From a virus, in the IMG/VR virus record IMGVR_UViG_3300042381_000142, positions 1 to 53,119 of that record: DNA of 53,119 nucleotides. The stretch is one strand, 5' to 3'. The notes under the pieces are model-generated. The model was not told the origin of the DNA, ran no database searches, and saw nothing but the letters and a program-made list of their open reading frames with translations. Within the stretch, counting starts at the first letter, position 1. Each line of letters begins with the position of its first letter. The translations under genes and the position numbers were made by a program. Below, one piece after another: positions 241 to 39,426 of this stretch.

Positions 241-266
241 GTCTGCGTAGCAGACCGATTTTATTT
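241..266 (+). terminator. Possible small terminator hairpin
   Basis: GTCTGC and GCAGAC form a perfect 6-bp stem with a 3-nt loop (241-255). It is followed closely by a T-rich run. It could end a transcript entering from the left edge. The stem is short and the T-run interrupted, so this is weak. Confidence 0.3.
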
Positions 267-299
267 TCTAGCTATGCTGCGTGCGTAGTGCGCTTTGCT

Positions 300-311
300 T
301 AACTGTGGTTA
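300..311. promoter_or_regulatory. TAAC-N4-GTTA dyad, copy 1
   Basis: TAAC-TGTG-GTTA, about 57 bp upstream of the P1 -35 box. One of eleven copies in the window, ten of which fall in the first 5.8 kb. Confidence 0.55.
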
Positions 312-324
312 TGCTTTGCGATGT

Positions 325-340
325 CTTAACTGGCGTTAAG
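325..340. promoter_or_regulatory. TAAC-N4-GTTA dyad, copy 2 (full 16-bp form)
   Basis: CTTAAC-TGGC-GTTAAG, a full 16-bp inverted repeat 27 bp upstream of the P1 -35 box. With copy 1 it makes a tandem pair of candidate operators (centres 27 bp apart). Confidence 0.6.
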
Positions 341-367
341 CTCTTGGTTTTAATTCTCCAAGTCCAT

Positions 368-396
368 TTGGTCTAAGCAAGTATATAGGCTATATA
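368..396 (+). promoter_or_regulatory. Promoter P1 (sigma70-like)
   Basis: -35 TTGGTC (368-373), 17-bp spacer, -10 TATATA (391-396). The block TTTGGTCTAAGCAA at 367-380 is identical to 5190-5203, where the same -35 also sits 17 bp from a TATAAC box. That conservation is the main support. It should drive the isolated gene at 453. Confidence 0.65.
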
Positions 397-403
397 TTAA
401 TAA

Positions 404-424
404 CTGGGGGGAGAAACTCCCCAG
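404..424 (+). promoter_or_regulatory. Leader hairpin upstream of the first gene
   Basis: The 3' arm CTCCCCAG (417-424) pairs with a G-rich 5' arm (404-413, two extra G) across an AAA loop. It sits at the expected 5' end of the P1 transcript, about 30 nt before the start codon. It may stabilise the mRNA or affect translation. Confidence 0.4.
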
Positions 425-452
425 CAACACAAACAAATGATTGGAATATCAA

Positions 453-1328
453 ATGACTACTACTGCAAAGCTTCTCACGAATGCATCCACGATTTCAACG
501 GGCCTCGATATGTACCGCGAAGGTACTGCTCAAGCGCAAGCTGGTATCGCCACTATGGTTGAAGGTATCAACACTGCACGCAAGTATTCAATGCGCTGGT
601 CTTACGGCGTTGGCGATAATGAAACGTCTGGTGTCTGCTTGGTTGAAGATATGTTCACGGCTCGGCGTCATGAGGATGGTTCGGTCGATGGTAAATATCT
701 GCCTGCCTTGTATCGCGCCCTAGCTGACAACTTCGGTATCGAAGGTGGCTTATCCTCGGCTGATAAAATGGCTTATCAACGTGCGTTCACGATTGCGTCT
801 GCTGGCTGGTCTGGTTCGCCTGTCGATGTTGTCACTGCCACAGTCCAGCGCAAGGGCAAGTCGGTCAAGGTTCAAGCTGTCGAGGTTCCTGCTTCGCTGG
901 CTTATGATTTGGTCGATGATGCTGGTGCTCCGAATGAATTGGCTCGCGGTCTGGTCGAGCGGGTTCGGGGCAATCTTGAATTGCAAGGTCTGCCTGTTCC
1001 TGCTGATGATGTGCTGTTGGAACAAGCAAAGGCGCTCAAGGTTAAGTGCGTAGGCGGCAACAATCCTATCTTCGGCAAGGTTCCGTCTGCTACTGACATA
1101 GCTAACAAGCTGGCTCCTGCTGCGATTGCTGGCGGTTATATGCAAGCTAAGGTCAACCGCACCAAAGCTGCCAACGGTGAAAAATTTGGCGAGTCTCTTG
1201 ATTACGTCATTAAGTGCGTCGATGAAATCTTGACTGATACTGATGAGGCTTCGTTCGCTCCATCGACTGCGGTTGAGGACAAGCTACACAAGCTAGCTGA
1301 AAAGATTGCTGCCTATTTCTCGGCATGA
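453..1328 (+). CDS. Isolated unrecognised phage protein (291 aa)
   Basis: I do not recognise a family. The protein is Ala/Gly/Val-rich, soluble-looking, without obvious transmembrane segment, and mostly helical by composition. I chose the ATG at 453, six bases after a weak GGAA; a TTG at 441 in the same frame would add four residues. The gene is a complete transcription unit by itself: promoter P1, leader hairpin, then a cluster of strong hairpins right after the stop. Its codons (many GGT, GCT, GTC, CGC) look more optimised than the genes at 2-5 kb, suggesting high expression. It borders the iteron array, so an origin-binding or host-takeover role is conceivable, but nothing in the sequence proves it. 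Confidence 0.8.
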   Translation: MTTTAKLLTNASTISTGLDMYREGTAQAQAGIATMVEGINTARKYSMRWSYGVGDNETSGVCLVEDMFTARRHEDGSVDGKYLPALYRALADNFGIEGGLSSADKMAYQRAFTIASAGWSGSPVDVVTATVQRKGKSVKVQAVEVPASLAYDLVDDAGAPNELARGLVERVRGNLELQGLPVPADDVLLEQAKALKVKCVGGNNPIFGKVPSATDIANKLAPAAIAGGYMQAKVNRTKAANGEKFGESLDYVIKCVDEILTDTDEASFAPSTAVEDKLHKLAEKIAAYFSA

Positions 1329-1384
1329 TAAACGGGCGGGGGTTTCGGCTCCCGCCTTCCCGCCTCGCGGCTCCGCCGCCTCCG

Positions 1385-1416
1385 CCTCGCGGCCTTCGGG
1401 TCGCGGGGTTTTTTTT
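1385..1416 (+). terminator. Rho-independent terminator of the first gene
   Basis: A 10-bp GC-rich stem (1385-1394 with 1399-1408, two G-U pairs) closed by a TTCG tetraloop and followed by eight T (1409-1416). It lies 57 bases after the stop codon. Confidence 0.9.
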
Positions 1417-1420
1417 CGCC

Positions 1421-1441
1421 TCCGCTCGGGTGCGGATTTTT
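1421..1441 (+). terminator. Second, backup terminator
   Basis: TCCGC (1421-1425) pairs with GCGGA (1432-1436), followed by five T. It follows the main terminator directly. Confidence 0.55.
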
Positions 1442-1449
1442 CCGCGCCC

Positions 1450-1470
1450 TTTGTCCCCGAAGGGGACAAA
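1450..1470. other. Perfect 9-bp hairpin without T-run
   Basis: TTTGTCCCC and GGGGACAAA form a perfect stem around a GAA loop. Neither strand shows a long T tail, so it may be an mRNA 3'-end stabiliser or the boundary of the origin-like region rather than a terminator. Confidence 0.5.
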
Positions 1471-1513
1471 CAAACAAATCAAACGTCAATCGAAGATTGT
1501 CATAATTAATCTA

Positions 1514-1625
1514 TGATAGAAGAGATGATAGTCATTACCAATGATAGTCACTTAACCATGATAGTCCTTTTACCAGTGATAGTTGTCTACCCTTGATAGT
1601 AGTCATGATAGTTTGCGGTGATAGT
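1514..1625 (+). repeat. Eight TGATAGT iterons
   Basis: TGATAGT starts at 1526, 1542, 1559, 1577, 1594, 1606 and 1619; a TGATAGA variant starts at 1514. Spacing is 12-18 bp, all on the same strand. Such clustering of a 7-mer cannot be chance, and same-strand iterons usually bind a replication initiator. Confidence 0.85.
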
Positions 1626-1628
1626 AGA

Positions 1629-1674
1629 AGCTAACTGGTTGGGTGAGCGTCTGAGCTAACTGGTTGGGTGAGCG
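1629..1674 (+). repeat. Two 21-bp direct repeats
   Basis: AGCTAACTGGTTGGGTGAGCG occurs at 1629-1649 and 1654-1674 (25-bp period), directly after the last iteron. Its core resembles the arm of the palindrome that follows. Confidence 0.85.
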
Positions 1675-1681
1675 CCTCGAC

Positions 1682-1705
1682 CGTTAGGTTGAGCTCAACC
1701 TAACG
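1682..1705. repeat. Perfect 24-bp palindrome
   Basis: The half-site CGTTAGGTTGAG is followed immediately by its exact reverse complement, with no spacer. It can form a cruciform or bind a dimer. It lies 8 bp after the direct repeats. Confidence 0.9.
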
Positions 1706-1929
1706 TCCAAAAACAGGTAAGTCAACAAGAAAATGCAAAGTAGGCTAAATAGTGCAAAGTTATTTGGCGGGTTTAAAACGATAACTTTAGTTTCCCTTAT
1801 ATTTCAACGCTTTAACCCCCTATTGTAGGAAGTAGGAAAGTTATTGGGTAATGAGCGGGGATTTTGATTTCTGAGCAGTCGCTGTTCGGGTCGCCCCTTC
1901 ACGCTATGCAAAAGGCGAAAAGGGCAGCG

Positions 1930-2003
1930 TTCACTATTTTCCTTATAACTTATTAACTTTAAAACTATACTATACTACTACCCCCAAAAAACCCCACATT
2001 TCT
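1930..2003. other. 74-bp AT-rich stretch with no G on the + strand
   Basis: Not one G occurs in 1930-2003, and the first 50 bp are about 80% A+T, with an ACTAT microrepeat. Candidate DNA-unwinding element beside the iterons. Confidence 0.5.
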
Positions 2004-2093
2004 GGGCCTCTCCAGCCGCCCAATAAAGTTAGAAAACAAATGAGGGTATTTAAACATTCCACAAAACCCTACATTACCAATTCCGAGCCCCAT

Positions 2094-2122
2094 TTGACAT
2101 AAGAGGGACTTTGTGCTACTTT
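2094..2122 (+). promoter_or_regulatory. Promoter P3 (extended -10)
   Basis: -35 TTGACA (2094-2099), 17-bp spacer, -10 TACTTT (2117-2122) preceded by TGC as an extended -10. Start of transcription expected near 2129, about 19 nt before the first ATG of the early operon. Confidence 0.6.
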
Positions 2123-2147
2123 AAATAATCGGCAGAACGTCGATACA

Positions 2148-2393
2148 ATGAAAAACCAAGCGCACACAAAACGCTTAACTGGAGTTAAGGAAATGACACA
2201 GGTCTTATGCAAAGACTGCTACACGCCGTTCTCTGTCGAACGGTTCCGACTGGGCTACCATACATGCTTAGCATGCGGCGACAAGCAAGCCCACGCAGTC
2301 ACATACTGCAGCGCCCCAATCAACAAGAGCAACTACATGCTGATTACTAACGTAACCGAGCTCGCTCAACTCAACCCGAAGAGGACATCATGA
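2148..2393 (+). CDS. Small zinc-ribbon protein (81 aa)
   Basis: Two Cys pairs (CKDC near residue 23 and CLAC near 42) suggest a zinc ribbon; function unknown. The ATG at 2148 has no clear ribosome binding site. An in-frame ATG at 2193 follows an AAGGA only one base away, too close to be ideal, so the start is uncertain. First gene after P3; its early codons contain a full dyad (2174-2189). It ends four bases into the next gene. Confidence 0.65.
   Translation: MKNQAHTKRLTGVKEMTQVLCKDCYTPFSVERFRLGYHTCLACGDKQAHAVTYCSAPINKSNYMLITNVTELAQLNPKRTS
2174..2189. promoter_or_regulatory. TAAC-N4-GTTA dyad, copy 3 (full 16-bp form)
   Basis: CTTAACT-GG-AGTTAAG, 45-60 nt downstream of the predicted P3 start. 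As RNA it could form a small stem over the alternative start at 2193. Confidence 0.6.
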
Positions 2394-2617
2394 TGAGTGA
2401 TTGGAAGAAAAAGTTTGATGCGTTCATGGCGTCACGCAAGCAGCACTACGCATGGGCTAACTACGCCAAGCGTACACCAGAGGAGAAGCTAGCAGCTATC
2501 TTAGAATGGGCGCGTCAAAACAACGAAACCATCGACGAATACGTCGAAGTGCCAGAAGAACTCAAAGGCATGAGCATGGCGCAGATATACGAGAAACTGA
2601 AGGAGCAAGACCAATGA
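2390..2617 (+). CDS. Unrecognised early protein (75 aa)
   Basis: Charged, helical, Trp/Tyr-containing N-terminus followed by an acidic C-terminus ending in KEQDQ. No family recognised. A GAGG lies upstream; ATG at 2390 or 2393. Its last codons encode the ribosome binding cassette AAGGAGCAAG of the next gene, explaining the KEQ tail. Confidence 0.75.
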   Translation: MMSDWKKKFDAFMASRKQHYAWANYAKRTPEEKLAAILEWARQNNETIDEYVEVPEELKGMSMAQIYEKLKEQDQ

Positions 2618-2847
2618 TGGATGAGTTCTATACCTACGTGCTTAGCTTCTATGGCAAGGGCGGTCTGTATCCGATGGGCGTAACGCTAACCGACGTTAAG
2701 TCAGCTACTAAGATACACAAGCACCGGACAAACATAGAGTTCGAAGGTGACAGCGTGGACCGCGAAAATGTACGCGACATATTAATCAAGGACTTTGGCT
2801 ACAAGTTCCCAAGCTTAACCACAGTTAAGGAGCAAGCAGATGTATAG
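2614..2847 (+). CDS. Unrecognised early protein (77 aa)
   Basis: Start ATG at 2614 is eight bases after AAGGAG (2600-2605); the frame is open further upstream, but that part overlaps the previous gene. The protein is small, mixed alpha/beta, and ends VKEQADV, again because the tail encodes the next gene's ribosome site. Two dyads lie inside it (2687-2698 and 2814-2829). No family recognised. Confidence 0.75.
   Translation: MMDEFYTYVLSFYGKGGLYPMGVTLTDVKSATKIHKHRTNIEFEGDSVDRENVRDILIKDFGYKFPSLTTVKEQADV
2687..2698. promoter_or_regulatory. TAAC-N4-GTTA dyad, copy 4
   Basis: TAAC-CGAC-GTTA inside the 77-aa gene; the right side extends to GTTAAG. Confidence 0.5.
2814..2829. promoter_or_regulatory. 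TAAC-N4-GTTA dyad, copy 5 (full form, overlaps RBS)
   Basis: CTTAAC-CACA-GTTAAG; its right arm runs straight into AAGGAGC of the gene at 2840. A 6-bp stem in the mRNA would partly hide that ribosome binding site. Confidence 0.6.
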
Positions 2848-3070
2848 CAAGTCAGCACTATTCGCCAAGGGCACCGCACTACGTGCGCAGCTGGAAGCCG
2901 AAGGGTATCAGTTCTACGACATACCACTAAGCCCCGCCTTTATAGAATACGACTGTAGCTACGCACCATGCAGCTACTGCGGTGAAGGCTGTGACCCAAT
3001 GGCAGCTATGCCAAAGCAATGGCAGTGCAGCAGCTGCGAAGAATGGAATGATAAGGAGCAAGACCAATGA
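2840..3070 (+). CDS. Small zinc-ribbon protein (76 aa)
   Basis: Cys motifs CSYCGEGC and CSSC in the C-terminal half indicate a metal-binding zinc ribbon. Unknown function, likely DNA or protein binding. Start ATG overlaps the end of the preceding gene. The last 18 bases (AAGGAGCAAGACCAATGA) are identical to 2600-2617, a copy of the ribosome binding cassette, and give the same KEQDQ tail as the gene at 2390. Confidence 0.75.
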   Translation: MYSKSALFAKGTALRAQLEAEGYQFYDIPLSPAFIEYDCSYAPCSYCGEGCDPMAAMPKQWQCSSCEEWNDKEQDQ

Positions 3071-3162
3071 ACACCCTACTACACGTAGCAGCCGAGATAT
3101 TCTTTATAAGCGCAGGCATCTTCGCAGTCTGGGCTATCCACGCAACATTGAAGGGGGAGTGA
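3067..3162 (+). CDS. 31-aa single-span membrane peptide
   Basis: ATG at 3067 overlaps the previous stop (ATGA), eight bases after AAGGAG at 3053-3058, giving an unusually good context for such a short frame. About 20 hydrophobic residues (ISAGIFAVWAIH core) suggest one membrane span. It ends TGA at 3160 just before the next gene. Function unknown; small early membrane peptides can act on host envelope or division. Confidence 0.6.
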   Translation: MNTLLHVAAEIFFISAGIFAVWAIHATLKGE

Positions 3163-3163
3163 G

Positions 3164-3622
3164 ATGGGTTATCGTTCAGAAGTAACTGTAGTTATCTACG
3201 TGCCTAGTGACAGCGACACGGCGTATCCGCTGCTCAAGCTGTGGTTTGATGCAAACTATCCGCATACTGAAGCGAAGGGCGAATGGTGCGCCACCATCGA
3301 CTACGAAGAGGAGAACCGAGCAATCGTCGTCTCATACGAGGACGTCAAGTGGTACGAAGCCTACGAGCATCCGAGAGAAGTGGACAAGGCGTTCGCTGAG
3401 ATTGATGCACTGCTAGATGCCGAGCCCGTAACCACAGTTAAGGATGGCGTCAGCCAAGACCCGAACGTCACACCGTTCGAGATAGCATATGAGTACGTGC
3501 GTATAGGAGAGGAGTATCAAGACATAGATATAAACATGAGCACCAACGCAGACTGCGTAACGACGGTAAACCGTGCACTAGACATAACATTCACACTACC
3601 AACCAAGAAAGTAACAACATGA
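3164..3622 (+). CDS. Conserved-looking phage protein, unknown function (152 aa)
   Basis: Starts MGYRSEV, a beginning I have seen in other phage hypothetical proteins; rich in acidic residues, predicted alpha/beta. A GGGGGAG lies just before the ATG. Dyads occur at 3183-3194 and 3429-3440. No catalytic motif recognised. Confidence 0.8.
   Translation: MGYRSEVTVVIYVPSDSDTAYPLLKLWFDANYPHTEAKGEWCATIDYEEENRAIVVSYEDVKWYEAYEHPREVDKAFAEIDALLDAEPVTTVKDGVSQDPNVTPFEIAYEYVRIGEEYQDIDINMSTNADCVTTVNRALDITFTLPTKKVTT
3183..3194. promoter_or_regulatory. TAAC-N4-GTTA dyad, copy 6
   Basis: TAAC-TGTA-GTTA, about 20 bases into the 152-aa gene, close to its translation start. Confidence 0.5.
3429..3440. promoter_or_regulatory. 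TAAC-N4-GTTA dyad, copy 7
   Basis: TAAC-CACA-GTTA followed by AAGGA, the same spacer and right flank as copy 5, but inside a gene with no start codon after it. Confidence 0.5.
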
Positions 3623-3798
3623 CATTCGAAGAGAAACAAGCACTGCGCGAGATGCGCGACGACATGGTAGACGAGCACGACAAGAGCCTGCTTAAGAAAG
3701 CACTCAACTATATCTACGACGTCGAGCGCAAGCTGGCAGCGATACGGGTGTTTGCAAAGGCCATCGACGCCGAGTCCAAGACCAAAGGGGACGAGTGA
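3619..3798 (+). CDS. Charged helical protein (59 aa)
   Basis: ATG at 3619 overlaps the preceding stop (ATGA) and runs 59 codons to TGA at 3796. The sequence is highly charged (Glu, Asp, Lys, Arg) and likely one or two long helices. No family recognised. The next gene starts at the overlapping ATG at 3798, so it fits the packed operon. Confidence 0.6.
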   Translation: MTFEEKQALREMRDDMVDEHDKSLLKKALNYIYDVERKLAAIRVFAKAIDAESKTKGDE

Positions 3799-4043
3799 TG
3801 GAGTCCGTCAGACGTTGGCTTGCGTTCAAGCTAGTCCAGATAGCAAACAGGCTGCACGGCGAGTTATTCATGCGTCTATGTGAGGTGGCTGTGCTGGCTA
3901 AATATAGGGACAGCTTCGAAGAAGCACTACGTGACGCCATGCGGCTCGAGCAAGAGCATGACTACGACTATAATAACGAAAGAGAAACCAATGACACAAA
4001 TAGCAATACGCCACATAACACCAACAAACACAAACTCCACTAA
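3798..4043 (+). CDS. Unrecognised early protein (81 aa)
   Basis: ATG at 3798 overlaps the previous TGA (TGATG); a GTG at 3795 would add one residue. The N-terminal 50 residues are helical and basic/hydrophobic. The C-terminus is low-complexity (Asp/Asn/His/Thr) and overlaps the next gene by 53 bases, which probably explains its odd composition. Confidence 0.6.
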   Translation: MESVRRWLAFKLVQIANRLHGELFMRLCEVAVLAKYRDSFEEALRDAMRLEQEHDYDYNNERETNDTNSNTPHNTNKHKLH

Positions 4044-4269
4044 CAGCGTAGGCATAGGCACAGTGCTGCCCGGGCGTGAAGATGACGCAGCGGATATAGC
4101 TACTATCAAGCTCCTAACTGACGTTATCGAAATACGTAACCAACTACGCGCACTCGAACCGCAGCTTAGCAAGATGATAACAGACTTTGGCTTACGCCGT
4201 GGACAGAGCGGTTACCGCGAGTTCTACCTACGCAACGAGCTGAACGCTCAAGCATACAAGGAGAAGTGA
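3991..4269 (+). CDS. Unrecognised early protein (92 aa)
   Basis: The frame is open from 3880, but ATG at 3991 gives the most natural product (MTQIAIRH...), after a purine-rich AAAGAGAAACC. The middle part (residues 35-70) reads as two helices. It carries dyad copy 8. No family recognised. Confidence 0.65.
   Translation: MTQIAIRHITPTNTNSTNSVGIGTVLPGREDDAADIATIKLLTDVIEIRNQLRALEPQLSKMITDFGLRRGQSGYREFYLRNELNAQAYKEK
4115..4126. promoter_or_regulatory. TAAC-N4-GTTA dyad, copy 8
   Basis: TAAC-TGAC-GTTA inside the 92-aa gene. Confidence 0.5.
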
Positions 4270-4270
4270 G

Positions 4271-5188
4271 ATGGCATTGAATTGGAACACATACGGGGCA
4301 CTACCCGTACTACGCAGCTACACAGCTGCACTCGCACACTTCAACAAGGTCGAACCAATCAGAGGTGACAAGGACGGAACCAAGCCAGCGGGTAGGCGCG
4401 ACCAGAAGTGGTTGGCTATCTACATACGCGACACGGACAAAGCGGTGTGCATAGGTAACACGTGGCAGAAGGACCAGAACAAAGCACTGCTGGCCTACCA
4501 CCCTGACGGGCGCGTGACTATTGAGCAGAACTTAAGTGCGGCGTGTCGTGAGCGTATACAGCGCATAGCAGTGCTTAACATCCAGCGTAAGTATAACGAG
4601 GACTGGGTGCATGCGGTATCGCATGTCGATGGTGAAGAAGTTATCGGGCAGTATCCGCTACAGCTACGATACAATAACCCACGCAAAGCAGTGTTCATAC
4701 TGCGCGAACACGATACACCCATCTACCTCAACCCGACACCTACGTATAAGCACATCATGAACAAGCAAGAGAAGGCCAAGCTAACCAAGCAATACAAACC
4801 GTTCATGCAGTATGTCGAGGTCATGGCTAAACTAAGCGCGGACGATAAGCAGTATAGTCCGTGGGACAAGGAGAGCAGAGATAACCCACGGTTACCGTCT
4901 ATTCCCCCCGAAGAGCGTAGGGAGATGGGTCTGCCAGCACATGGTGGCTTGAGCTGGTCACCCGAGGGTCCGCCACAGTTGATTAGCTTAGTAGAGAGCG
5001 GTGATACCGAGAGCTGGTACAAAGCTATGGCATGGCTAACCGCTGGTCGCTGGCGCATGCTGTTGAACGAGGCCAGACTAGAATTGACGCACACTATGCA
5101 TAAACACTACCGTGACGAGTTGTTTACCAAAGAACGGGTGGAAGCAGGTAAGTGCGTACACGACCGCTATGGCCGATACTTCAGGTGA
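4271..5188 (+). CDS. Unrecognised early protein (305 aa)
   Basis: AAGGAG at 4258-4263 is seven bases before the ATG. The protein is soluble and rich in Tyr, Trp and Arg. The middle contains a Pro-rich stretch (around residues 205-240) and the end is basic (DRYGRYFR). No motif allows a function call. It is the last gene before promoter P2, only a few bases away. Confidence 0.8.
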   Translation: MALNWNTYGALPVLRSYTAALAHFNKVEPIRGDKDGTKPAGRRDQKWLAIYIRDTDKAVCIGNTWQKDQNKALLAYHPDGRVTIEQNLSAACRERIQRIAVLNIQRKYNEDWVHAVSHVDGEEVIGQYPLQLRYNNPRKAVFILREHDTPIYLNPTPTYKHIMNKQEKAKLTKQYKPFMQYVEVMAKLSADDKQYSPWDKESRDNPRLPSIPPEERREMGLPAHGGLSWSPEGPPQLISLVESGDTESWYKAMAWLTAGRWRMLLNEARLELTHTMHKHYRDELFTKERVEAGKCVHDRYGRYFR

Positions 5189-5190
5189 GT

Positions 5191-5219
5191 TTGGTCTAAG
5201 CAAATACCTGTGGTATAAC
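5191..5219 (+). promoter_or_regulatory. Promoter P2 (sigma70-like)
   Basis: -35 TTGGTC (5191-5196), 17-bp spacer, -10 TATAAC (5214-5219). The 14-bp block TTTGGTCTAAGCAA at 5190-5203 matches P1 exactly. Drives the ATPase cassette; leader about 85 nt. Confidence 0.7.
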
Positions 5220-5275
5220 CATAGGACAATAAAGAGCCGCACAAGCGGACGACAACCACAACAACCAAGCAAAGT

Positions 5276-5291
5276 CTTAACTGTAGTTAAG
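5276..5291. promoter_or_regulatory. TAAC-N4-GTTA dyad, copy 9 (full 16-bp form)
   Basis: CTTAACT-GT-AGTTAAG, 50-65 nt downstream of the expected P2 start and eight bases before the AAGGAG of the ATPase gene. Its position relative to P2 closely copies that of copy 3 relative to P3. Confidence 0.65.
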
Positions 5292-5310
5292 CAATAACAA
5301 GGAGCATATC

Positions 5311-6384
5311 ATGAGTGCATTAAACTTCGGCACAACTGTGTCACTTGCAGAAGCTGCAAGCCTTATCATCAACTGCCCTAACAATCGGTTCTTCCTTCAA
5401 GGTGAGCCTGGGATTGGCAAGTCATCCATCATGGGCGCACTGGAGCGGCACTTCGGTGACGCATACGCCTACGCATACTTTGACTGCGCACAAGCCGACC
5501 TTGGCGACATCGCCATGCCGAGTATCAACCGTGACAAGCAGATAACCGAGTACTTCGCTAACGCTATCTTCCAGATACAGTCCGGCAAGCCTGTGGTTAT
5601 CATGCTAGACGAGTTCACCAAGGCACCGCAGCCTGTGCAGAATATGCTTCACCCTCTGCTGGAGTCGCGCAAGCCACGGCTAGGTAACAACGTGCTGCGC
5701 GATGGTTCCATCGTGCTTATGACTGGCAACATGGCAGGCGAAGGTCTTGGCGATACAGTCAAGCCACATACACGCAACCGCGTAACTACGGTTACGGTGC
5801 GCAAGCCAGACGCAGACGAGTGGTTGGCATGGGCAGTTACTAACGACATCGACCCCGTTGTCATGGCTTGGGTTAATCAGTTCCCGCATGCCATGGCATC
5901 ATACATGGACGGTGACCAAGAGAGTAATCCGTATATCTTCAACCCCAAGCGGCAGCAGGGTAGCTTCGTATCAGGTCGGTCGTTGCAGCTTGCGTCTAAC
6001 GACGTACTCAAGCAGCGTGAGAAGCTGACAGCCAACGCGCTACTCGCAGCCATGGTGGGTACAATCGGTGAGTCCGCTGCGCGGGACATGCATGCCTTCG
6101 TAGAGTATCAAGACCAGCTACCTACGTGGGACGACATCACTAAGGACCCAGCCAAGGCCAAGCTGCCCGAGAGTCCCGGCGCATGCGCAGTCATGGTGTT
6201 CGGTGCGATTGCCAAGATTGACCGCAATACAATCACGCCGTTCATGGAGTATGTCGAGCGCATGGCACCAGAGTGGCAAGCTGTGTTCGCAGTCAACCTG
6301 TGTAAGAACCCAGACAAGAAGCAGATTGGCTTTACGTCTACTAAGTTCCGCGACTGGGCATTGGCTAACGTGGACATCCTCTAG
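5311..6384 (+). CDS. MoxR-type AAA+ ATPase (357 aa)
   Basis: Walker A GEPGIGKS (residues 31-38), Walker B MLDEF (Asp100, Glu101), sensor 1 Asn140 in LMTGN, and arginines at HTRNR (about 154-157) give a complete AAA+ core of the MoxR kind. These ATPases typically remodel partner proteins together with a VWA-domain protein, which is exactly what lies two genes downstream. AAGGAG is six bases before the ATG. Dyad copy 10 is inside. Substrate unknown; a role in modifying a host or virion complex is inference. Confidence 0.9.
   Translation: MSALNFGTTVSLAEAASLIINCPNNRFFLQGEPGIGKSSIMGALERHFGDAYAYAYFDCAQADLGDIAMPSINRDKQITEYFANAIFQIQSGKPVVIMLDEFTKAPQPVQNMLHPLLESRKPRLGNNVLRDGSIVLMTGNMAGEGLGDTVKPHTRNRVTTVTVRKPDADEWLAWAVTNDIDPVVMAWVNQFPHAMASYMDGDQESNPYIFNPKRQQGSFVSGRSLQLASNDVLKQREKLTANALLAAMVGTIGESAARDMHAFVEYQDQLPTWDDITKDPAKAKLPESPGACAVMVFGAIAKIDRNTITPFMEYVERMAPEWQAVFAVNLCKNPDKKQIGFTSTKFRDWALANVDIL
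5783..5794. promoter_or_regulatory. TAAC-N4-GTTA dyad, copy 10
   Basis: GTAAC-TACG-GTTAC (5782-5795) within the ATPase gene. Confidence 0.45.
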
Positions 6385-6566
6385 TGGATGGGCTTCACGT
6401 GGTGGATGTGAAGCGTAGTGAGATTTGGTCGATATGGCAGGTTAATCTATCCAATCGCAAAGTCATGCACGTTTCATTCTTCGACCACCCCGACGAGCTA
6501 AGCGCATACGTATACGCAACTAACAGACTAAAGGAGCAAGCTAATGGCACTAACAGCCGAGCGTAA
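6384..6566 (+). CDS. Small unrecognised protein (60 aa)
   Basis: GTG start overlapping the ATPase stop (TAGTG). Short alpha/beta protein; its tail LKEQANGTNSRA is dictated by the ribosome cassette and start of the next gene, which it overlaps by 23 bases. Could be a linker subunit of the ATPase/VWA pair, but no family is recognised. Confidence 0.55.
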   Translation: MDGLHVVDVKRSEIWSIWQVNLSNRKVMHVSFFDHPDELSAYVYATNRLKEQANGTNSRA

Positions 6567-7731: not shown

Positions 7732-7742
7732 GGAGCAAGCAC

Positions 7743-8594: not shown

Positions 8595-8608
8595 GAAGGA
8601 GCAAGACG

Positions 8609-9469: not shown

Positions 9470-9502
9470 AGGGATAAACACTCATAAGAAGGAGCAAACG
9501 AC

Positions 9503-10357: not shown

Positions 10358-12222
10358 TGGACATTCTGAACATCGACTTCGAAACCTACTACAGCCAGAA
10401 GTTTAGCTTATCTAAGCTGACAACGGAGGAGTATGTCCGCGACTCACAGTTCGAGACCATCGGTGTTGCAGTCAAGCGTAACAATGAACCAACTGAATGG
10501 TTCAGCGGGACCAAGGCGCAAACCAAGCGGTGGCTAGATAAGTGGGACTGGGCTAACAGCGTAGCTGTGGCTCACAACGCTATGTTCGACATGGCAATCC
10601 TTAACTGGTGTTATGACATTCGACCCAAGCGAATTGCAGATACCCTGTCTATGCTTCGTGCTATCGACGGGCCGCATGCTGGTAACAGCCTAGCTAAAGC
10701 AGTCGAGCGCTATGGTCTGGGCGAGAAGGGCACAGAGGTTATCAACGCGCTGGGTAAGCGGCGGCTGGACTTTACTGACGAGGACCTAGAGCGGTACGGT
10801 GAGTACTGCATCAATGACGTAGAGCTAACGCACAAGTTGTTTGAGGTCACGGCACCACTCATGCCTGTGTCTGAACTGCGGCTTATCGACCTTACTATCA
10901 GAATGTTTACGGAGCCGGTGCTGGTCTTAGACAAACAAGTCCTCACAAAACACGTGTCTAATGTGAGGAGCAAAAAAGCCGAGCTTATGGAAGCAGTCGA
11001 GGCGGACAAAGACGCACTGATGTCCAACCCGAAGCTAGCTTTGCTGCTACGTGACATGGGTGTAGTCCCACCTACGAAGGTAAGTCCGAAGACAGGCAAG
11101 GAAGCATTTGCCTTCGCCAAGAGTGACGAGGGGTTCAAGGCACTGCTTGAGCACCCCAACCCGACAGTGCAGGCGGTAGTAGCTGCGCGACTAGGTGTGA
11201 AGTCTACACTTGAGGAAACGCGCACCGAGAGGTTTATAGCTATTGCCGACCGGGGGACATTACCAGTCCCACTACGTTACTATGCAGCCCACACAGGTAG
11301 GTGGGGTGGCGACGACAAGGTGAACCTCCAGAACCTACCACGCAAGTCACCACTCAAGAAGTCCATGCTAGCACCAAAAGGCTATGTGTTTATCGACTGT
11401 GACTCGTCGCAGATTGAAGCGCGCACCTTGGCGTGGCTAGCTGGGCAGGAAGACCTTGTGGAGTTCTTTGATAAGAACAATGCGGAAGTCGCAGCGGGTG
11501 TAGAGAAGATGGACATGCAGTACGACCCGTACAAAATCATGGCGTCGGAGATATATAACAAGCCGGTAAACGAGATAAACGAGCACCCCGAGCGCTTCAT
11601 AGGTAAGATGACCATCCTTGGGGCTGGGTATGGCATGGGTGCGGCTAAGTTTAAGGTACAGCTGGAGACCATGGGCGTATCGCTGTCGTCGTCAGAGTGC
11701 GCCAGCATCGTGTATAAGTATAGGGACCAGTTCGAACGCATACCGCTCTTGTGGGCGGAGGGTGACAAGGCTCTCGACGCGCTTATGTCCGCTCGGACCG
11801 CACCTCTAGGCAAGCATGAAGCCGTGCTTATTGATATGTTTGGTGTGCGTCTGCCTAACGGCATGTACTTGAGGTACGATAACCTACGCAAGCAGCGGGA
11901 CCAGAAGTCGGGCCGTGACCAGTTTGTCTACGACGTCAAGAGGGGTCGGGCTACGCTACCTACGTATATATACGGCGGTAAGCTTATAGAGAACGTGTGT
12001 CAGGCACTTGCCCGTATTATTATAGGTGAGCAGATGCTGATGGTCGCACGTAAGTACCGTGTAGTGATGACCGTGCACGATGCCGTGGGGGTGATTGCCC
12101 CCGTAGAAGAGGCCGACAAGGCCCGTGCGTTTGTCGAAGCATGCATGCGCATGCGCCCCAAGTGGGCACCAACGTTACCATTGAATTGTGAAAGCAAGAT
12201 AGGAGCAAGCTATGGAGGTTAA
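10354..12222 (+). CDS. Family A DNA polymerase with 3'-5' exonuclease (622 aa)
   Basis: Exonuclease motifs: DFETY near the N-terminus, AHNAMFD, and YCINDVELT. Polymerase motifs: motif A CDSSQIEAR (Asp350), motif B with KMTILGAGYGMG, and motif C VHDAVG (His575-Asp576-Ala577). It is the phage replicative polymerase, T7-like in size but without a separate 5' nuclease domain. Motif C has Ala where Escherichia coli Pol I has the second acidic residue (HDE); this may be lineage-specific. ATG at 10354 or 10357. The end overlaps the next gene by 11 bases. Confidence 0.96.
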   Translation: MMDILNIDFETYYSQKFSLSKLTTEEYVRDSQFETIGVAVKRNNEPTEWFSGTKAQTKRWLDKWDWANSVAVAHNAMFDMAILNWCYDIRPKRIADTLSMLRAIDGPHAGNSLAKAVERYGLGEKGTEVINALGKRRLDFTDEDLERYGEYCINDVELTHKLFEVTAPLMPVSELRLIDLTIRMFTEPVLVLDKQVLTKHVSNVRSKKAELMEAVEADKDALMSNPKLALLLRDMGVVPPTKVSPKTGKEAFAFAKSDEGFKALLEHPNPTVQAVVAARLGVKSTLEETRTERFIAIADRGTLPVPLRYYAAHTGRWGGDDKVNLQNLPRKSPLKKSMLAPKGYVFIDCDSSQIEARTLAWLAGQEDLVEFFDKNNAEVAAGVEKMDMQYDPYKIMASEIYNKPVNEINEHPERFIGKMTILGAGYGMGAAKFKVQLETMGVSLSSSECASIVYKYRDQFERIPLLWAEGDKALDALMSARTAPLGKHEAVLIDMFGVRLPNGMYLRYDNLRKQRDQKSGRDQFVYDVKRGRATLPTYIYGGKLIENVCQALARIIIGEQMLMVARKYRVVMTVHDAVGVIAPVEEADKARAFVEACMRMRPKWAPTLPLNCESKIGASYGG

Positions 12223-15835: not shown

Positions 15836-16507
15836 ATGACAGCGTGGTCCTATAGTAGCATCAAGACCTTCGACCAGTGTCCGAAGAAGTACTTCCACCT
15901 CAAGGTGGTTAAGGACGTAAAGGACGACCCCGGCGAAGCAGCTATCTATGGGACCAACGCGCACGAAGCAGCCGAACATTACATTAAGAATGGCACACCG
16001 ATACCAGAGAAGTTTGCAGTCATGCGTCCCGTGGTGGAAGTGCTGGCTCAGTTTAAGGGCGAGAAGCACACCGAGTTAAAGCTAGGCGTCAGGAAGACGG
16101 ATACTGGCTACGAGCCATGCGGCTTCTTTGATAAGGACGTATGGTGGCGCGGCATAGTCGATTTGCTTATAGTGAACGGCAAGACTGCCCACATGGTAGA
16201 TTACAAGACAGGCAAGAACGCCAAGTATGCGGACATGAAGCAGCTAGACCTTATGGCTGGCGCGGTGTTTGTGCACTACCCAGAGATAACTAAGGTTAAG
16301 TCAGGGCTGGCGTTTGTGGTATCGAACGAGTTTCCTAAGAAGACGCACACCCGTGAGCACTTGGATACGTACCTAACCGTGTTTAATAATCAGCTAGAAC
16401 AGCTTGAGGACAGCATGCGAAATGGTGTATGGAACGCAAAGACCAGCCCACTATGTGGATGGTGTCCAGTTAAAAGCTGCGAACATTGGAAGCCTAGGAG
16501 ATATTGA
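15836..16507 (+). CDS. Cas4/RecB-like PD-(D/E)XK nuclease with Fe-S cysteines (223 aa)
   Basis: Start SYSSIKTFDQCPKKYF is the classic N-terminus of RecB/Cas4 nucleases. Catalytic residues: Asp109 in GIVDLL and Asp122-x-Lys124 in VDYKTGK. Cys15 plus C207, C210 and C215 in the C-terminal tail match the four-cysteine iron-sulfur pattern of Cas4/AddB. Likely a DNA exonuclease in phage recombination or host DNA degradation. Dyad copy 11 lies inside. Confidence 0.88.
   Translation: MTAWSYSSIKTFDQCPKKYFHLKVVKDVKDDPGEAAIYGTNAHEAAEHYIKNGTPIPEKFAVMRPVVEVLAQFKGEKHTELKLGVRKTDTGYEPCGFFDKDVWWRGIVDLLIVNGKTAHMVDYKTGKNAKYADMKQLDLMAGAVFVHYPEITKVKSGLAFVVSNEFPKKTHTREHLDTYLTVFNNQLEQLEDSMRNGVWNAKTSPLCGWCPVKSCEHWKPRRY
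16287..16298. promoter_or_regulatory. TAAC-N4-GTTA dyad, copy 11
   Basis: TAAC-TAAG-GTTA, the only copy outside the first 5.8 kb; may be chance. Confidence 0.3.
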
Positions 16508-18825: not shown

Positions 18826-19773
18826 ATGACCAATTTGACTATCTTCAAAAACCCCAATGCTGTCGCAGTGGCGTTGCCACCATCCAAGATGGGTACGCAG
18901 ATTGCTTCGGGCATGGGCGGCTACAACCGCATCGCCACCAACACCAACGGCACGTTCAAGCGCATCGTAAACGGTGAGCAGGTTGGCAAGGCCATCCGTG
19001 GTGAGTTTAACGCCATCATCCTTGCTATGCTGGATAAGCCTAGCCGTAGCTTCTACGCTAACGACTATGACCCCGACGCCAAGGGCAGTGCACCTGACTG
19101 CTTCTCTAACCTAGGTGACAAGCCAGAAGCATCCGCCGCCAACCGTCAGTCCGCTAATTGCGCTAGCTGCCCTAAGAACATAGATGGTTCGGGTAAGAAC
19201 GGTAAGGGTAAAGCCTGTCGCTTCAGCCGCAAGGTAGCACTGTTCTTGGACGGCGATGAGTCCGGTGATGTATATCAGTTCAACATCCCAGCTAAGTCGC
19301 TATTCGGTAAGGCTACTGGTAACGTCCTTCCGTTTGAGCAGTACTGCCGCCATCTGGTGTCAAACAATGCAGCGCCTGACCGCGTGGTTACTACGGTTGC
19401 GTACAACCTTGACGCAGAAACTATGGAGCTTAACTTCACTGCTGACCGGTTTATTGACCTAGATGAGTTAGCGCGTGTCAACGAGGCGCAGAACAACCCT
19501 GCCACTATGCGCTTGATTAGCTTCGACATGGCGAAGGCCACAACTACGGAAGAACCTGTCAAGCTTACAGCACAGCCGGAGCCAGAACCAAAGGCTAAGA
19601 AGCCATCCTTCTTGGATGACGACGATGGTGAGGACGATGAAGAAGAAGCATTGGCCGAACCAGTGAAGCGCCCTTCTAAAAAGGCTACTACCGCTGCCGC
19701 TGTTGATGCACCTACCGGCACACTTGCCGCTGTGGTTAGTGACTGGGCCGACGACGAAGAAGAAGACGACTGA
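18826..19773 (+). CDS. Acidic-tailed Cys4 protein, possible ssDNA-binding protein (315 aa)
   Basis: ATG at 18826 after GAGAGAAAC; a GTG at 18814 would add four residues and overlap the previous stop. Four cysteines (PDCF, NCASC, ACRF; about residues 92-130) may bind zinc. The C-terminal quarter is low-complexity, Glu/Asp-rich and ends DDEEEDD. A zinc site, beta-rich core and acidic tail in a replication cluster recall phage ssDNA-binding proteins such as T4 gp32 and T7 gp2.5 in layout. This is inference from layout, not homology. Confidence 0.75.
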   Translation: MTNLTIFKNPNAVAVALPPSKMGTQIASGMGGYNRIATNTNGTFKRIVNGEQVGKAIRGEFNAIILAMLDKPSRSFYANDYDPDAKGSAPDCFSNLGDKPEASAANRQSANCASCPKNIDGSGKNGKGKACRFSRKVALFLDGDESGDVYQFNIPAKSLFGKATGNVLPFEQYCRHLVSNNAAPDRVVTTVAYNLDAETMELNFTADRFIDLDELARVNEAQNNPATMRLISFDMAKATTTEEPVKLTAQPEPEPKAKKPSFLDDDDGEDDEEEALAEPVKRPSKKATTAAAVDAPTGTLAAVVSDWADDEEEDD

Positions 19774-20015
19774 TGAGCGGCGGTTATAGTCTACGTATAC
19801 AGGAAGCAAATGCCAAGGCGAGCAAACACAAGTTGGGTGTTCGTCTGGGTAGGCTCTGTATCGCGCAGGACATACCCGTAGCTGTGGTAGCCAAGTGTAC
19901 AGGTGTAACGAGGCAAACAGTATACAACTGGTTCTGCGGGACTTCGGTCCCGCAGGGCAGTGCCACGGCGCTTATAGCTTCATACATGGCTAGTCTGGAG
20001 AGCTCTACTTCCTAA
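19773..20015 (+). CDS. Cro/XRE-like HTH protein (80 aa)
   Basis: RLCIAQDIPVAVVAKCTGVT then RQTVYNWFCGTSVP is a helix-turn-helix with an NW recognition helix. Start overlaps the previous stop (TGATG). Its final codons form the terminator stem, so it closes the operon. Likely a small phage DNA-binding regulator. Confidence 0.82.
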   Translation: MSGGYSLRIQEANAKASKHKLGVRLGRLCIAQDIPVAVVAKCTGVTRQTVYNWFCGTSVPQGSATALIASYMASLESSTS

Positions 20016-20078: not shown

Positions 20079-22913
20079 GTGGCAGAGGATTTTGACCTTT
20101 TATCAGCGGTGCAGCCCCAAGAGGGTTGGTACGCTATCGTCGGGCTAAGCCCCGACAGCAAGCAACAGGAGCTAGTAGAGACCCGTGAAGAGGCCGACGC
20201 ATGGGCCAAGACGTTCCTCAACCAAGGGAAGAATGTATTTTTTGGTGTAGCTAAGTATACAGACGGTAAGAGCAGGAAGAAAGAAAACGTCAAGTCACTT
20301 AAGTCACTTTGGCTCGACATAGATTGTGGGCCAGAGAAGGACTACGATACACAGGAAGAAGGGTTAGATGCCCTTCGTAAGTTCTGCAAGACAGTCGGTA
20401 TGCCTAAGCCCACCATAGTTAATTCTGGGCGCGGTCTGCACGTATACTGGACGTTGACTGAAGAAGTTACACGTGAAGAATGGGAGCCTGTGTGTCTAAG
20501 GCTGAAGGAAGTCTGCACCACTAAGGAGCTACGTGTCGATAACAGCTGCTTCGAAGCAGCGCGTATCCTGCGTATTCCCGGCACGTTTAACTTTAAGGGT
20601 ACGGACCCCCTACGTGTAGAAGTCATAACGATTGGTAAGCCGACACCCATGCAGGACATACGTGACCTGTTGGGGGTAAAGGAGACGAAGGCGACACTGT
20701 TTGGTGACATGCCTACATTCGCACCTAGCCCGTTAGCTAAGCTTATACGTGCCAACATGGAGTCGAGCTTCACCAAGATTATGAACCGTGGTCAGAACGG
20801 GTGCAAGCAGCTTAACGCTAGTTACGCAGACCGCAGGGAAATATCTGAGCCACGATGGTTTGCTGCGTTGTCAATCGCCAAGTTCTGTAAGGACCGTGAT
20901 AAGGCTATACACAAGTTATCCGCAGACCATCCTGACTATGACCCTGACAAGGTTGAGCAGAAGGTAACACACATAGTCGGGCCGCACACATGTGCGGAGT
21001 TCGAGAAACACAATCCCGGCGGATGTGCAGGGTGCCCGCACATTGGCAAGATACGCTCCCCTATTACACTAGGTAAAGAACTGAAGGAGGCAACTCCAGA
21101 GGACAACGTAGTTATAGAGGAAACCCAGCTTGGGGCAGTGAAGTACCATATACCCGAGTTTCCCTTCCCCTACGTACGGGGCAAGCACGGTGGCGTATGG
21201 CGCAAGGTTACACCCAAAGACGAGGAAGAAGGCGTCGAGGACGTTGTATTGGTGTATCCGTACGACATATATGTAGCCAAGCGTATGGATGACCCAGTCG
21301 AGGGGGGTGTAGCACTTATTCGTCTGCACAGCCCACAGGATGGCGTCAAAGAGTTCACGGTGCACAATTCAAAGGTGATGGACGGTAACGAGCTACGCAA
21401 GTTCCTCGCCTCTAAGCACGTGATGCTTAGCTCCAAGGTCGATTATGCGTACTTGGTGGACTTCATAGTAAAATCAGTAGCTCAATATTTTCACAACACA
21501 AAGGTAGAACAAATGCGCAATCAATTTGGATGGGTCGATAACGACAGTAAGTTTATTATAGGCGACCGTGAGATAAGTGCCGAGGGGACATACCATAGCC
21601 CCCCGTCGTCAGTCACCAAGGCACTAGCCGAACACATGACAGCTAAGGGTACGTTGGAGAAGTGGACAGAGGTGTTTAACCTGTACGGACGTCCGGGCCT
21701 TGAAGGGCATGCGTTCGCAGCAGCCACCGCCTTCGGTGCGCCTCTCTTGCGTTTCTCCGGTCAACGTGGGGCAATCATTAACGTGGTGCACCCCAAGTCA
21801 GGTACAGGTAAGACTACAGCCCTGCTTATGGCTAACAGTGTATACGGCGACCCAGCGGCGCTATGTGCCAAGAAGGACGACACGTTCAACTCGAAGGTAT
21901 TTAAGATAGGGGTTTTCTGTAACCTGCATATCAGCTTCGACGAAATGTCGAACACAGAGCCCAAGCAACTAAGTGAACTCGCCTACTTGATTACACAGGG
22001 TACAGGCAAGGATCGCATGAAGGCGTCTTCAAACGAGCTTCGGGCAAACCTGACGTCATGGCAGACCATAGCACTGTGCTCGTCTAACCACTCGTTCTAC
22101 GAGAAGCTTGAGATTGCCAAGGGGTCGCCTGATGGTGAAACCATGCGCATCATCGAATACAGCATCGACTATTCTGACGCGATTGACATCGAGTATGGCA
22201 AGAAGATGTTCGACCACCAGTTGCTTGAAAACTACGGGCATGCAGGTGACATCTACGCACGGTACCTGATTACGCACTATGACGAGGTGAAGGCGCTTTA
22301 TGCTACGGTTCAACAGCGCATCGACTCCAAGCTTAAGCTAACACAGCGTGAGCGGTTCTGGTCGGCAACAGCAGCAGCTAACATAACGGGTATCTACATC
22401 GCCCTGCATCTTGGCCTGTGTAACTGGGACATTGCTGCCATCTTTAAGTGGACGTGCAAGATGATACTCAACCTACGCAACACGATGACACCGCCACCCG
22501 AAGGTGACCAGCAGATACTTGGTGAGTTTATGAACGCCCGTCTGGGTAACATTCTCATAGTTAATGACGGGGTAGACCGTCGCAGCAAGATGGTGGAAGT
22601 ACCGCAGTTAGAGCCGTTGCGAGAGCTTATGATACGCTACGAACCGGATACTGCTAAGGTATACATAACTGCTAGCTCGTTCCGTGAGTATTGTGGGGCA
22701 CGTAACATTGCTTACCGCTCGACCATTAACGCTATGAAAGCCAAGGGCCTGTACCTTGACGCAGAGAACAAGCGCATGTCAAAGGGCATGAAGGTCAACA
22801 CGGTGCCGGTGCAGTCGCTAATCTTCGACGCTAACCACCCTGACTTTAGTGGCATTACGGACCTGTTCAATAACGCAATCACGGCTGTGAAGCCGGACGC
22901 CGACGAAGAGTGA
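20079..22913 (+). CDS. Primase-helicase, PrimPol-like + DUF927-type (944 aa)
   Basis: GTG start, after GGAG at 20065. N-terminal archaeo-eukaryotic primase signs: LDID (Asp80, Asp82) and SGRGLHVYW (His121). A Cys-rich part CAEFEKHNPGGCAGCP (about 306-321) follows. C-terminal helicase: Walker A SGTGKTT (Lys578), Walker B ISFDEMS (Asp621, Glu622), as in DUF927 helicases. It synthesises primers and unwinds DNA for the family A polymerase. Ends in GTGA, overlapping the next start. Confidence 0.92.
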   Translation: MAEDFDLLSAVQPQEGWYAIVGLSPDSKQQELVETREEADAWAKTFLNQGKNVFFGVAKYTDGKSRKKENVKSLKSLWLDIDCGPEKDYDTQEEGLDALRKFCKTVGMPKPTIVNSGRGLHVYWTLTEEVTREEWEPVCLRLKEVCTTKELRVDNSCFEAARILRIPGTFNFKGTDPLRVEVITIGKPTPMQDIRDLLGVKETKATLFGDMPTFAPSPLAKLIRANMESSFTKIMNRGQNGCKQLNASYADRREISEPRWFAALSIAKFCKDRDKAIHKLSADHPDYDPDKVEQKVTHIVGPHTCAEFEKHNPGGCAGCPHIGKIRSPITLGKELKEATPEDNVVIEETQLGAVKYHIPEFPFPYVRGKHGGVWRKVTPKDEEEGVEDVVLVYPYDIYVAKRMDDPVEGGVALIRLHSPQDGVKEFTVHNSKVMDGNELRKFLASKHVMLSSKVDYAYLVDFIVKSVAQYFHNTKVEQMRNQFGWVDNDSKFIIGDREISAEGTYHSPPSSVTKALAEHMTAKGTLEKWTEVFNLYGRPGLEGHAFAAATAFGAPLLRFSGQRGAIINVVHPKSGTGKTTALLMANSVYGDPAALCAKKDDTFNSKVFKIGVFCNLHISFDEMSNTEPKQLSELAYLITQGTGKDRMKASSNELRANLTSWQTIALCSSNHSFYEKLEIAKGSPDGETMRIIEYSIDYSDAIDIEYGKKMFDHQLLENYGHAGDIYARYLITHYDEVKALYATVQQRIDSKLKLTQRERFWSATAAANITGIYIALHLGLCNWDIAAIFKWTCKMILNLRNTMTPPPEGDQQILGEFMNARLGNILIVNDGVDRRSKMVEVPQLEPLRELMIRYEPDTAKVYITASSFREYCGARNIAYRSTINAMKAKGLYLDAENKRMSKGMKVNTVPVQSLIFDANHPDFSGITDLFNNAITAVKPDADEE

Positions 22914-39417: not shown

Positions 39418-39426
39418 CTTCTTTCC

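Follow-up and report, generated by a model that had tools for sequence, protein, structure and literature searches.

The 53,119-nt stretch of viral DNA studied here (IMG/VR record IMGVR_UViG_3300042381_000142, positions 1–53,119, from here on the window) carries 14 copies of the dyad TAAC-N4-GTTA, ten of them within its first 5.8 kb (5.5 kb of early genes) and four beyond. Related phages keep such arrays with the same or another half-site spacing or with another palindrome, and the dyads are proposed, with a probability of about 0.6, to be operators for a dimeric regulator, encoded by the phage, that would block transcription as a roadblock. The sequence basis consists of the array itself, its lineage variants, its position relative to promoter-like sequences and start codons, the absence of a G:U bias in arrays with a 3-bp spacer (N3) and the retention of key copies in relatives; beyond this we infer protein binding, a block of elongation and, as the binder, an 80-amino acid (aa) helix-turn-helix (HTH) protein.

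Number and distribution of the dyads

Dinucleotide shuffles of the window gave 0.89 expected copies of the dyad and a maximum of 4 in 100 shuffles, in line with a first-pass annotation made from the sequence alone, which had predicted less than one. The eleven coordinates listed there were all exact and four copies extend to CTTAAC-N4-GTTAAG, as it had stated, but the total is 14, the copies at 10602, 20813 and 35453 having been missed, so that together with 16287 four copies rather than one lie outside the first 5.8 kb. Among all 4-N4-4 palindromes of the window TAAC ranks first (14 versus 5 for the next), and in a uniform palindrome scan it scores -13.4 (log10 Poisson). When spacers of 0–10 are compared only AGCC-N3-GGCT is more numerous, with 18 copies at 38875–42169; 17 of these are situated within a repetitive gene (39490–42378), often at multiples of 66 bp from each other, and they are internal repeats of that gene, not a dispersed array.

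Nine of the 13 dyads before 23.1 kb are located in called coding sequences (CDS). Only two coding phases are open to the dyad, as phase 0 would create a stop codon, and the copies are divided between phase 1 (seven) and phase 2 (two, at 10602 and 20813); the single frame stated for the copies in open reading frames (ORFs) in the first-pass annotation is thus only partly right. The copies at 300, 327 and 5278 are outside called CDS, and that at 2176 precedes the likelier start at 2193, although it would fall inside an ORF (2148–2393) if an earlier ATG were used.

Chance or codon bias could be suspected from a site with eight fixed bases and a free centre, of which the copies in variable small genes are not kept in relatives. 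Shuffling of synonymous codons in the early CDS (5,130 bp as called) gave a mean of 0.62 and a maximum of 4 dyads and none of 2000 shuffles reached the six observed, and in the other plus strand CDS (16,266 bp) three were observed against a mean of 0.27, a number reached by 1 of 500 shuffles. With the dinucleotide shuffles, the retention of other copies and the array in a separate contig (L172, below) the probability of this explanation is close to nil, and it was rejected. Neither of the two outcomes that the first-pass annotation had named beforehand as refuting was observed: the density of the early region is not reproduced when codons are preserved, and relatives keep an array.

Alignments with two relatives revealed that all eight fixed bases are kept in eight of the 12 alignable dyads in G016 (3.2 expected from local identity) and in five of the ten alignable dyads in G008 (1.4 expected). 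The dyads in the variable small genes between 2617 and 4269 are kept in neither, and both relatives have copies of their own elsewhere.

Arrays in related phages

Two scans of viral contigs yielded 96 loci, some contigs contributing more than one. The closest relatives of the window, as measured by identity of the MoxR-like ATPase, are enriched in TAAC-N4-GTTA, and in a group with 50–72% identity the palindrome is TAAC-N3-GTTA, mostly with C and G flanks (for example CTAACAAAGTTAG in G025), the number of N4 copies being 0–2. Identity tracks the spacer imperfectly, since G013 and G014 (71–72%) have the N3 form and G011, G012 and G024 (71–76%) together with G017 and G019 (53%) the N4 form. Four copies of CTAAC-N5-GTTAG are found near the contig end in G031, and the remote G028 and G029 (33% MoxR identity) harbour 12 and 11 copies of TCCTAC-N-GTAGGA. 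Two named phages belong here as well, RHph_TM3_14A (RHph) with 26 copies of TTACC-N6-GGTAA and Pag-Yong1 with 25 of GTTCA-N3-TGAAC, and contig L172, reached through a neighbouring gene, contains nine TAAC-N3-GTTA in 6.95 kb against 0.075 expected. To call the dyad phage-specific was accordingly too narrow, arrays being common to related phages with sequence and spacing switching by lineage.

One uniform palindrome scan, scored as log10 Poisson, was performed across 31 records with phiC31 as positive control (-57). Scores of -16.8 to -78.7 were obtained for 17 records, G025, G015, G021, G011, G022, G028, G029, G020, G012, G017, G018, G019, G023, G024 and G030 and, through other motifs, RHph and Pag-Yong1, and scores of -6.9 to -12.7 for G013, G016, G010, G008, G014 and G031. 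The signals of Xp15 (-5.6) and Effie (-8.0) are weak, that of Rollin (-9.3) stems from three copies situated less than 0.5 kb from the record start, and the top-ranking signal in G000 and G003 comes from a repeat within a late gene. The scan also picks up signals that are not arrays, as in G032 (-12.2, tandem 60-bp repeats) and G026 (-20.7, AGCT-N5-AGCT in a genome of 36% GC), and no array was found in the early stretches of G033, G026 and G032. G026 (L148–L151) is a remote MoxR-bearing genome of 74 kb in which AGCT-N5-AGCT occurs 20–22 times and TACT-N5-AGTA 22 times, possibly another array or an effect of composition.

A site for a host regulator such as CtrA (TTAA-N7-TTAA) was considered as the extended dyad includes TTAA-N6-TTAA, and CtrA sites are described as clustering in some alphaproteobacterial phages (PMC9437464). 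The window contains no TTAA-N7-TTAA, a count on which CtrA was rejected, and its TTAA-N6-TTAA sequences are limited to the four extended copies; in many N3 relatives CTAAC takes the place of TTAAC, and the site switches among relatives. A host regulator of this kind is hence most improbable.

In the literature on dispersed phage palindromes and on RHph phages no report of these arrays was found in the titles and abstract openings listed, and no paper naming Pag-Yong1 was found. The Pag-Yong1 sequence (L165, L166; OL906435) has 69% GC, and as records of the same length (65,014 bp) are attributed to three cyanobacterial hosts, the cultures may have contained another bacterium as its true host.

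Position relative to promoters and start codons

The clearest arrangement is seen upstream of the MoxR-like gene, where a σ70-like promoter was identified by eye in 14 of 18 records (for instance TTGACA/TTGACT-N17-TATAAC/TACATT in relatives). The order in this leader is promoter, a short GC-rich hairpin (in several records), a C/A-rich and G-poor stretch, the dyad and, 17–25 nt further on, the start codon. When the 34 loci were checked, 28 of them being used (without L016 and L033–L037) and 27 counted as L021 is too short, a dyad with a spacer of 3 or 4 was present within 110 nt upstream of the gene in 23, several of which are near-identical phages; L009, L014, L015 and L018 have none in the leader. 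In the window the centre of the dyad at 5278 is at about +57 from the transcription start deduced from the -10 hexamer.

Across 17 related records dyad centres peak 25–75 bp downstream of σ70-like starts, with 22 of 232 sites against about 4.2 expected. A position within 60 nt upstream of a start codon with a ribosome-binding site is held by 3 of 14 dyads in the window (random 0.06), 1 of 16 in G011 (0.08), 6 of 19 in G025 (0.11) and 5 of 12 in G028 (0.09), the remaining records being in between, and in Pag-Yong1 by 18 of 25 sites relative to annotated starts (0.10). A regulatory or replication-related binding site coexisting with coding, as proposed in the first-pass annotation, is supported, and the evidence leans towards regulation of early transcription because some dyads are situated downstream of σ70-like promoters in presumed transcribed leaders.

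A strict promoter scan of window positions 1–11000 returned 7 hits, no more than the 10.6 expected, and failed to pick up either promoter-like sequence of Table 1, at 368 and 5191. The former and positions 5190–5203 have the 14-mer TTTGGTCTAAGCAA in common, and at least two matches within two mismatches are given by 7 of 100 shuffles. The 30 nt before the dyad in the MoxR leader comprise 167 C, 166 A, 50 G and 37 T in 14 records (G011, G014, G017, G019 and G028 left out), compared with 1619 C, 1359 A, 1401 G and 991 T ahead of the remaining dyads in these records; this stretch (5249–5277 and its counterparts in relatives) could be a Rho-loading or translation-enhancing segment. Folding of the 85-nt leader gave z = -1.35, with 17 of 200 shuffles folding equally well, and is not significant alone. 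A strong hairpin is located at 404–424, just past the deduced start of the first early promoter (-15.6 kcal/mol for 56 nt, z -3.5).

The same leaders bear on the idea that the dyads are hairpin promoters for an RNA polymerase carried in the virion, as in phage N4. The N4 promoters have a stem of 5–7 bp and a 3-nt loop, a geometry shared by CTAAC-N3-GTTAG and GGTTCA-N3-TGAACC, and the MoxR-like gene is shared with Schitoviridae-like phages. The σ70-like promoter in 14 of 18 records speaks against it, and where the start can be placed it is about 36–57 bp before the dyad centre, so that the dyad is expected inside the transcript. A scan of 48 window proteins against PHROGs, many of whose families have no known function, revealed no RNA polymerase, and a 2260-aa late protein has no Pfam or PDB-sequence match, nor were all of a set of crude polymerase-motif patterns present in it. 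Promoters of the N4 type are for these reasons very unlikely.

Recognition as DNA and spacing of the arrays

The dyads might instead act as RNA, in the form of a transcribed hairpin (CUUAAC-loop-GUUAAG) that serves as the target of a phage protein or governs the stability, translation or antitermination (nut-like) of the mRNA. Copies near start codons do fall in presumed leaders, folding gives 6-bp hairpins (-3.9 to -4.2 kcal/mol) for three of the four extended copies of the window, and G028 (12 of 12 sites) and G029 (10 of 11) have a constant loop on the coding strand. RNA stems, however, tolerate G:U pairs, and in seven N3 records with 78 exact and 29 one-mismatch copies a single mismatch was of the G:U type on the coding strand, two were of the opposite type and 26 of neither, 22 of the 29 affecting only the outermost pair. 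This lack of bias favours recognition as DNA. Six N4 records gave 6 of the G:U type, 6 opposite and 15 neither, a test of less weight since eight fixed bases are often matched by chance, and the counts for RHph (9 versus 4) and Pag-Yong1 (4 versus 6), which refer to the record strand with genes on both strands and are uninformative on RNA, were not used. In the clade of the window the loop sequence is variable with no consistent centre, the extended copy at 327 prefers another fold, most copies before 23.1 kb are in CDS, and Rfam gave no match in window 1–7000 at E 0.5. An RNA element is thus considered improbable, least so in G028 and G029, and a site for a dimeric protein is, judging from the sequences, the best explanation of the TAAC arrays.

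To describe the spacing, 16 array stretches of our own choice were analysed. In five related N3 records the regularity exceeds that of random placement (P <= 0.0007, coefficient of variation (CV) 0.26–0.44, means of 562–703 bp), as it does, with weaker support, in RHph (P 0.002), G017 (0.003) and Pag-Yong1 (0.017). Regularity was not seen in the window array (CV 0.89, P 0.58) or in seven other stretches, and as a general rule it is not supported in the window. These figures, and the RHph copies that extend across much of the genome with genes included, would suit sites for replication, partition or a nucleoprotein complex organising, protecting or condensing part of the genome. Such a role does not predict the link with promoters and start codons, the five most regular stretches are from related N3 phages, eight stretches including the window are irregular, and no partition gene was recognised among the scanned proteins; sites of this kind are regarded as unlikely.

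Candidate binding protein

The leading candidate for the binder, as judged from sequence and predicted structure, is the 80-aa protein encoded beside the primase gene. It is predicted with confidence to have a lambda-repressor-type HTH fold; the model has a predicted local distance difference test score (pLDDT) of 89 with helices at residues 21–31, 36–43, 47–54 and 63–79. Foldseek gave a probability of 0.99 with E of 0.13 or more, and the HTH matches in Pfam are all below the curated cut-offs. Its structural neighbours include the c2 repressor of P22 (Z 7.3, root-mean-square deviation 2.2, 57 aligned residues), which is tied with HNF-1A and others, and C.Kpn2I (Z 6.7), but identities of 11–18% and Z below 8 point to a shared fold at most. 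The dyad may also resemble the P22 operator (TTAAG-N4-CTTAA). For the controller protein C.Kpn2I an elongation roadblock is reported in PMC6237814.

A search for the protein in 29 records detected it in 14, 11 with TAAC arrays, G031 with its partial array, G032, which covers little of the early region, and G033. Neither the protein nor an array was found in Rollin, Xp15 and Effie, and the other nine records lacking it may end short of the region. Residues R47, T49 and N52 are invariant across 32 aligned homologues, which fits the constant TAAC half-site, but since G033 has them without an array the link stays a lead.

Two other candidates were rejected. The product of the fast-evolving 305-aa gene at 4271–5188, inside the array, gave a model with pLDDT 87 and no meaningful fold match, and the first early gene belongs in TAAC-array records to two families that are not detectably related, each found with both N3 and N4 arrays. 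In the wider group the first early genes fall in families without detectable mutual relation, and in one N3 relative (L032:4935–6418) the first array gene is present as two tandem copies of 165 and 154 aa.

Proposed mechanism

In the roadblock reading one monomer would bind each TAAC half-site, the halves being held at a fixed spacing of 4 bp here and of 3 or 5 bp in relatives, and the bound dimer would repress or time early-gene expression. In the MoxR leader and at some other copies the dimer would sit 25–75 bp downstream of a host-type promoter and before the ribosome-binding site, where it would block the elongating host RNA polymerase, and at copies inside genes it would likewise block read-through transcription. 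The 80-aa HTH protein, made with the replication genes, may then shut the early genes down as Cro does, which is the weakest step.

Several observations weigh against this proposal. The dyads at 300 and 327 are upstream, not downstream, of their promoter-like sequence, coding sequence contains nine of the 13 copies before 23.1 kb, and RHph has no more than 8 of its 26 sites in the 60 nt ahead of an annotated start (random 0.095). The promoter counts pool related phages, and another bin of the N3 data (-200 to -175) held 5 sites against 1.2 expected. The same centre on the coding strand in G028 and G029 is a directionality that a symmetric DNA site leaves unexplained. For the binder, Z below 8 may reflect just a common HTH arrangement, HNF-1A being tied with P22 c2, and G033 encodes the protein, invariant residues included, although the 40.0 kb available of its 40.7 kb show no TAAC array. 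That G028, RHph and Pag-Yong1, with other palindromes, are without the protein fits the proposal but is perhaps due to kinship alone. Finally, the 48 window proteins scanned included no recognisable integrase, partition protein or lysogeny repressor.

Genome organisation and other features

Table 1. Positions of the dyads and associated features in the window
Feature	Position	Strand	Remarks
Dyad TAACTGTGGTTA	300..311	.	First of a pair upstream of promoter-like 368; 8/8 fixed bases kept in G016 and G008
Dyad, core of CTTAACTGGCGTTAAG	327..338	.	Other member of the pair, 27 bp from the first; kept in G016 and G008
Promoter-like TTGGTC-N17-TATATA	368..396	+	Ahead of first early gene; noticed by comparison with relatives
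Dyad, core of CTTAACTGGAGTTAAG	2176..2187	.	5 nt before likely start codon of gene 2193–2393; retained in G016 and G008
Dyad in CDS 2617–2847	2687..2698	.	Kept in neither G016 nor G008
Dyad, core of CTTAACCACAGTTAAG	2816..2827	.	Near end of CDS 2617–2847, 12 nt before start of gene 2840; kept in neither G016 nor G008
Dyad in CDS 3164–3622	3183..3194	.	Kept in neither G016 nor G008
Dyad in CDS 3164–3622	3429..3440	.	Not kept in G008; G016 unalignable without gaps
Dyad in ORF 3880–4269	4115..4126	.	Not kept in G016 (7/8 bases) or G008
Promoter-like TTGGTC-N17-TATAAC	5191..5219	+	Ahead of MoxR-like gene; by eye, too weak for strict scan
Small hairpin CCGC-ACAA-GCGG	5237..5248	+	Between MoxR promoter and dyad; stem sequence differs among relatives
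Dyad, core of CTTAACTGTAGTTAAG	5278..5289	.	Before MoxR-like ATPase gene, 21 nt before start codon; retained in G016 and G008
MoxR-like AAA+ ATPase gene	5311..6384	+	phrog_1297 ATPase, 5.6e-47; "MoxR-like" is the name in some matching records
Dyad in MoxR-like ATPase CDS	5783..5794	.	Retained in G016 and G008
Dyad in DNA polymerase CDS	10602..10613	.	Retained in G016
Dyad in exonuclease CDS	16287..16298	.	Retained in G016
80-aa lambda-repressor-type HTH protein (predicted)	19773..20015	+	Beside primase; leading candidate binder of TAAC half-site
Dyad in primase-helicase-like CDS	20813..20824	.	Retained in G016
Dyad in other-strand ORF 35061–35753	35453..35464	.	Isolated; may be chance

The source phage genome is about 62,180 bp, of which the window covers 53,119 bp. 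Record G003 is 100% identical to the window in the overlap and holds a further 9,058 bp absent from it, which by eye look like late structural genes and contain one more TAAC-N4-GTTA; the two ends of this record have 127 bp in common and are located in the region 1526–1705. The early and replication genes are on the plus strand, with products that include the MoxR-like ATPase, a phrog_1314 protein (annotated VWA-like in its Pag-Yong1 homologue), DNA polymerase, exonuclease, helicase and a primase-helicase-like protein, and most late genes are on the minus strand. No tRNA was found in the window. For its first 8 kb no near match was found among 50,697 phage records, and distant named relatives were reached through protein comparison. 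The sole match to a contig from a bacterial genome is L172, a 7-kb contig in a metagenome-assembled genome of Bacillota, a clue too weak for naming the host.

When analysing the region 1526–1705, which belongs to a long gap without called genes, seven TGATAGT repeats appeared on one strand at intervals of 12–18 bp, followed by two copies of GCTAACTGGTTGGGTGAGCG as a direct repeat and, by eye, a 24-bp palindrome at 1682–1705. The region is iteron-like and possibly a replication origin. The 2260-aa late protein (23187–29969) is similar to phrog_10089 (DarB-like antirestriction, 1.3e-36) and phrog_11358 (of unknown function, 1.9e-38), and phmmer found it in 14 compared records, G000 and G003 among them.

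Relation to known systems and significance

The c repressor of phiC31 binds conserved inverted repeats (CIRs). As with these, many near-identical palindromes are dispersed among the lytic genes of the window; the scan of phiC31 finds 14 copies of TACTCA-N2-TGAGTA, 13 of them between annotated genes, whereas the dyads of the window are clustered in one arm and often intragenic, with a site that varies among relatives. An integrase and a repressor are annotated in phiC31, unlike in the window, where neither was recognised among the proteins scanned.

Stoperators of the L5/Bxb1 group (cluster A) are described as 20 to 30 repressor sites, mostly away from promoters, that block elongation, with a consensus differing by subcluster together with repressor preference (PMC6550527). 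Those of the L5 type are, according to PMC6550527 and PMC9283540, asymmetric 13-bp sites to which a monomer binds and which follow the direction of transcription. The dyads seem to resemble them in placement, with centres 25–75 bp past promoter-like sequences and copies in CDS, but are palindromic and not evidently oriented and do not have the asymmetric form. In SPbeta the repeated phage-specific site SPBRE was, as related in PMC10516654, detected computationally some 24 years ahead of its binder MrpR, which binds it in the promoter regions of about ten phage genes. The dyad is likewise a repeated phage site, but SPBRE is a 15-bp motif recognised by a prophage repressor of the tyrosine-recombinase fold.

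Dispersed repressor sites that stop elongation are already known from a few temperate phages, and here site sequence and spacing change between relatives in environmental phages, two of them named and sequenced. Control at promoters alone leaves the regular intragenic spacing of some lineages unexplained. More speculatively, and with the odds against it, a possibly virulent family of uncultivated phages may silence or time its early genes with a palindromic ladder of elongation roadblocks running through coding sequence, nearly regular at about 0.6 kb in some lineages, whose operator specificity would switch by half-site spacing (3, 4 or 5 bp) or by replacement of the palindrome, so that every lineage would form a separate immunity type, apart from the temperate systems already known. 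Should the dyads be bound by a phage protein, the co-evolution of a switch protein and its operators would be readable from sequence, and superinfection-immunity groups would be predictable in uncultivated phages.

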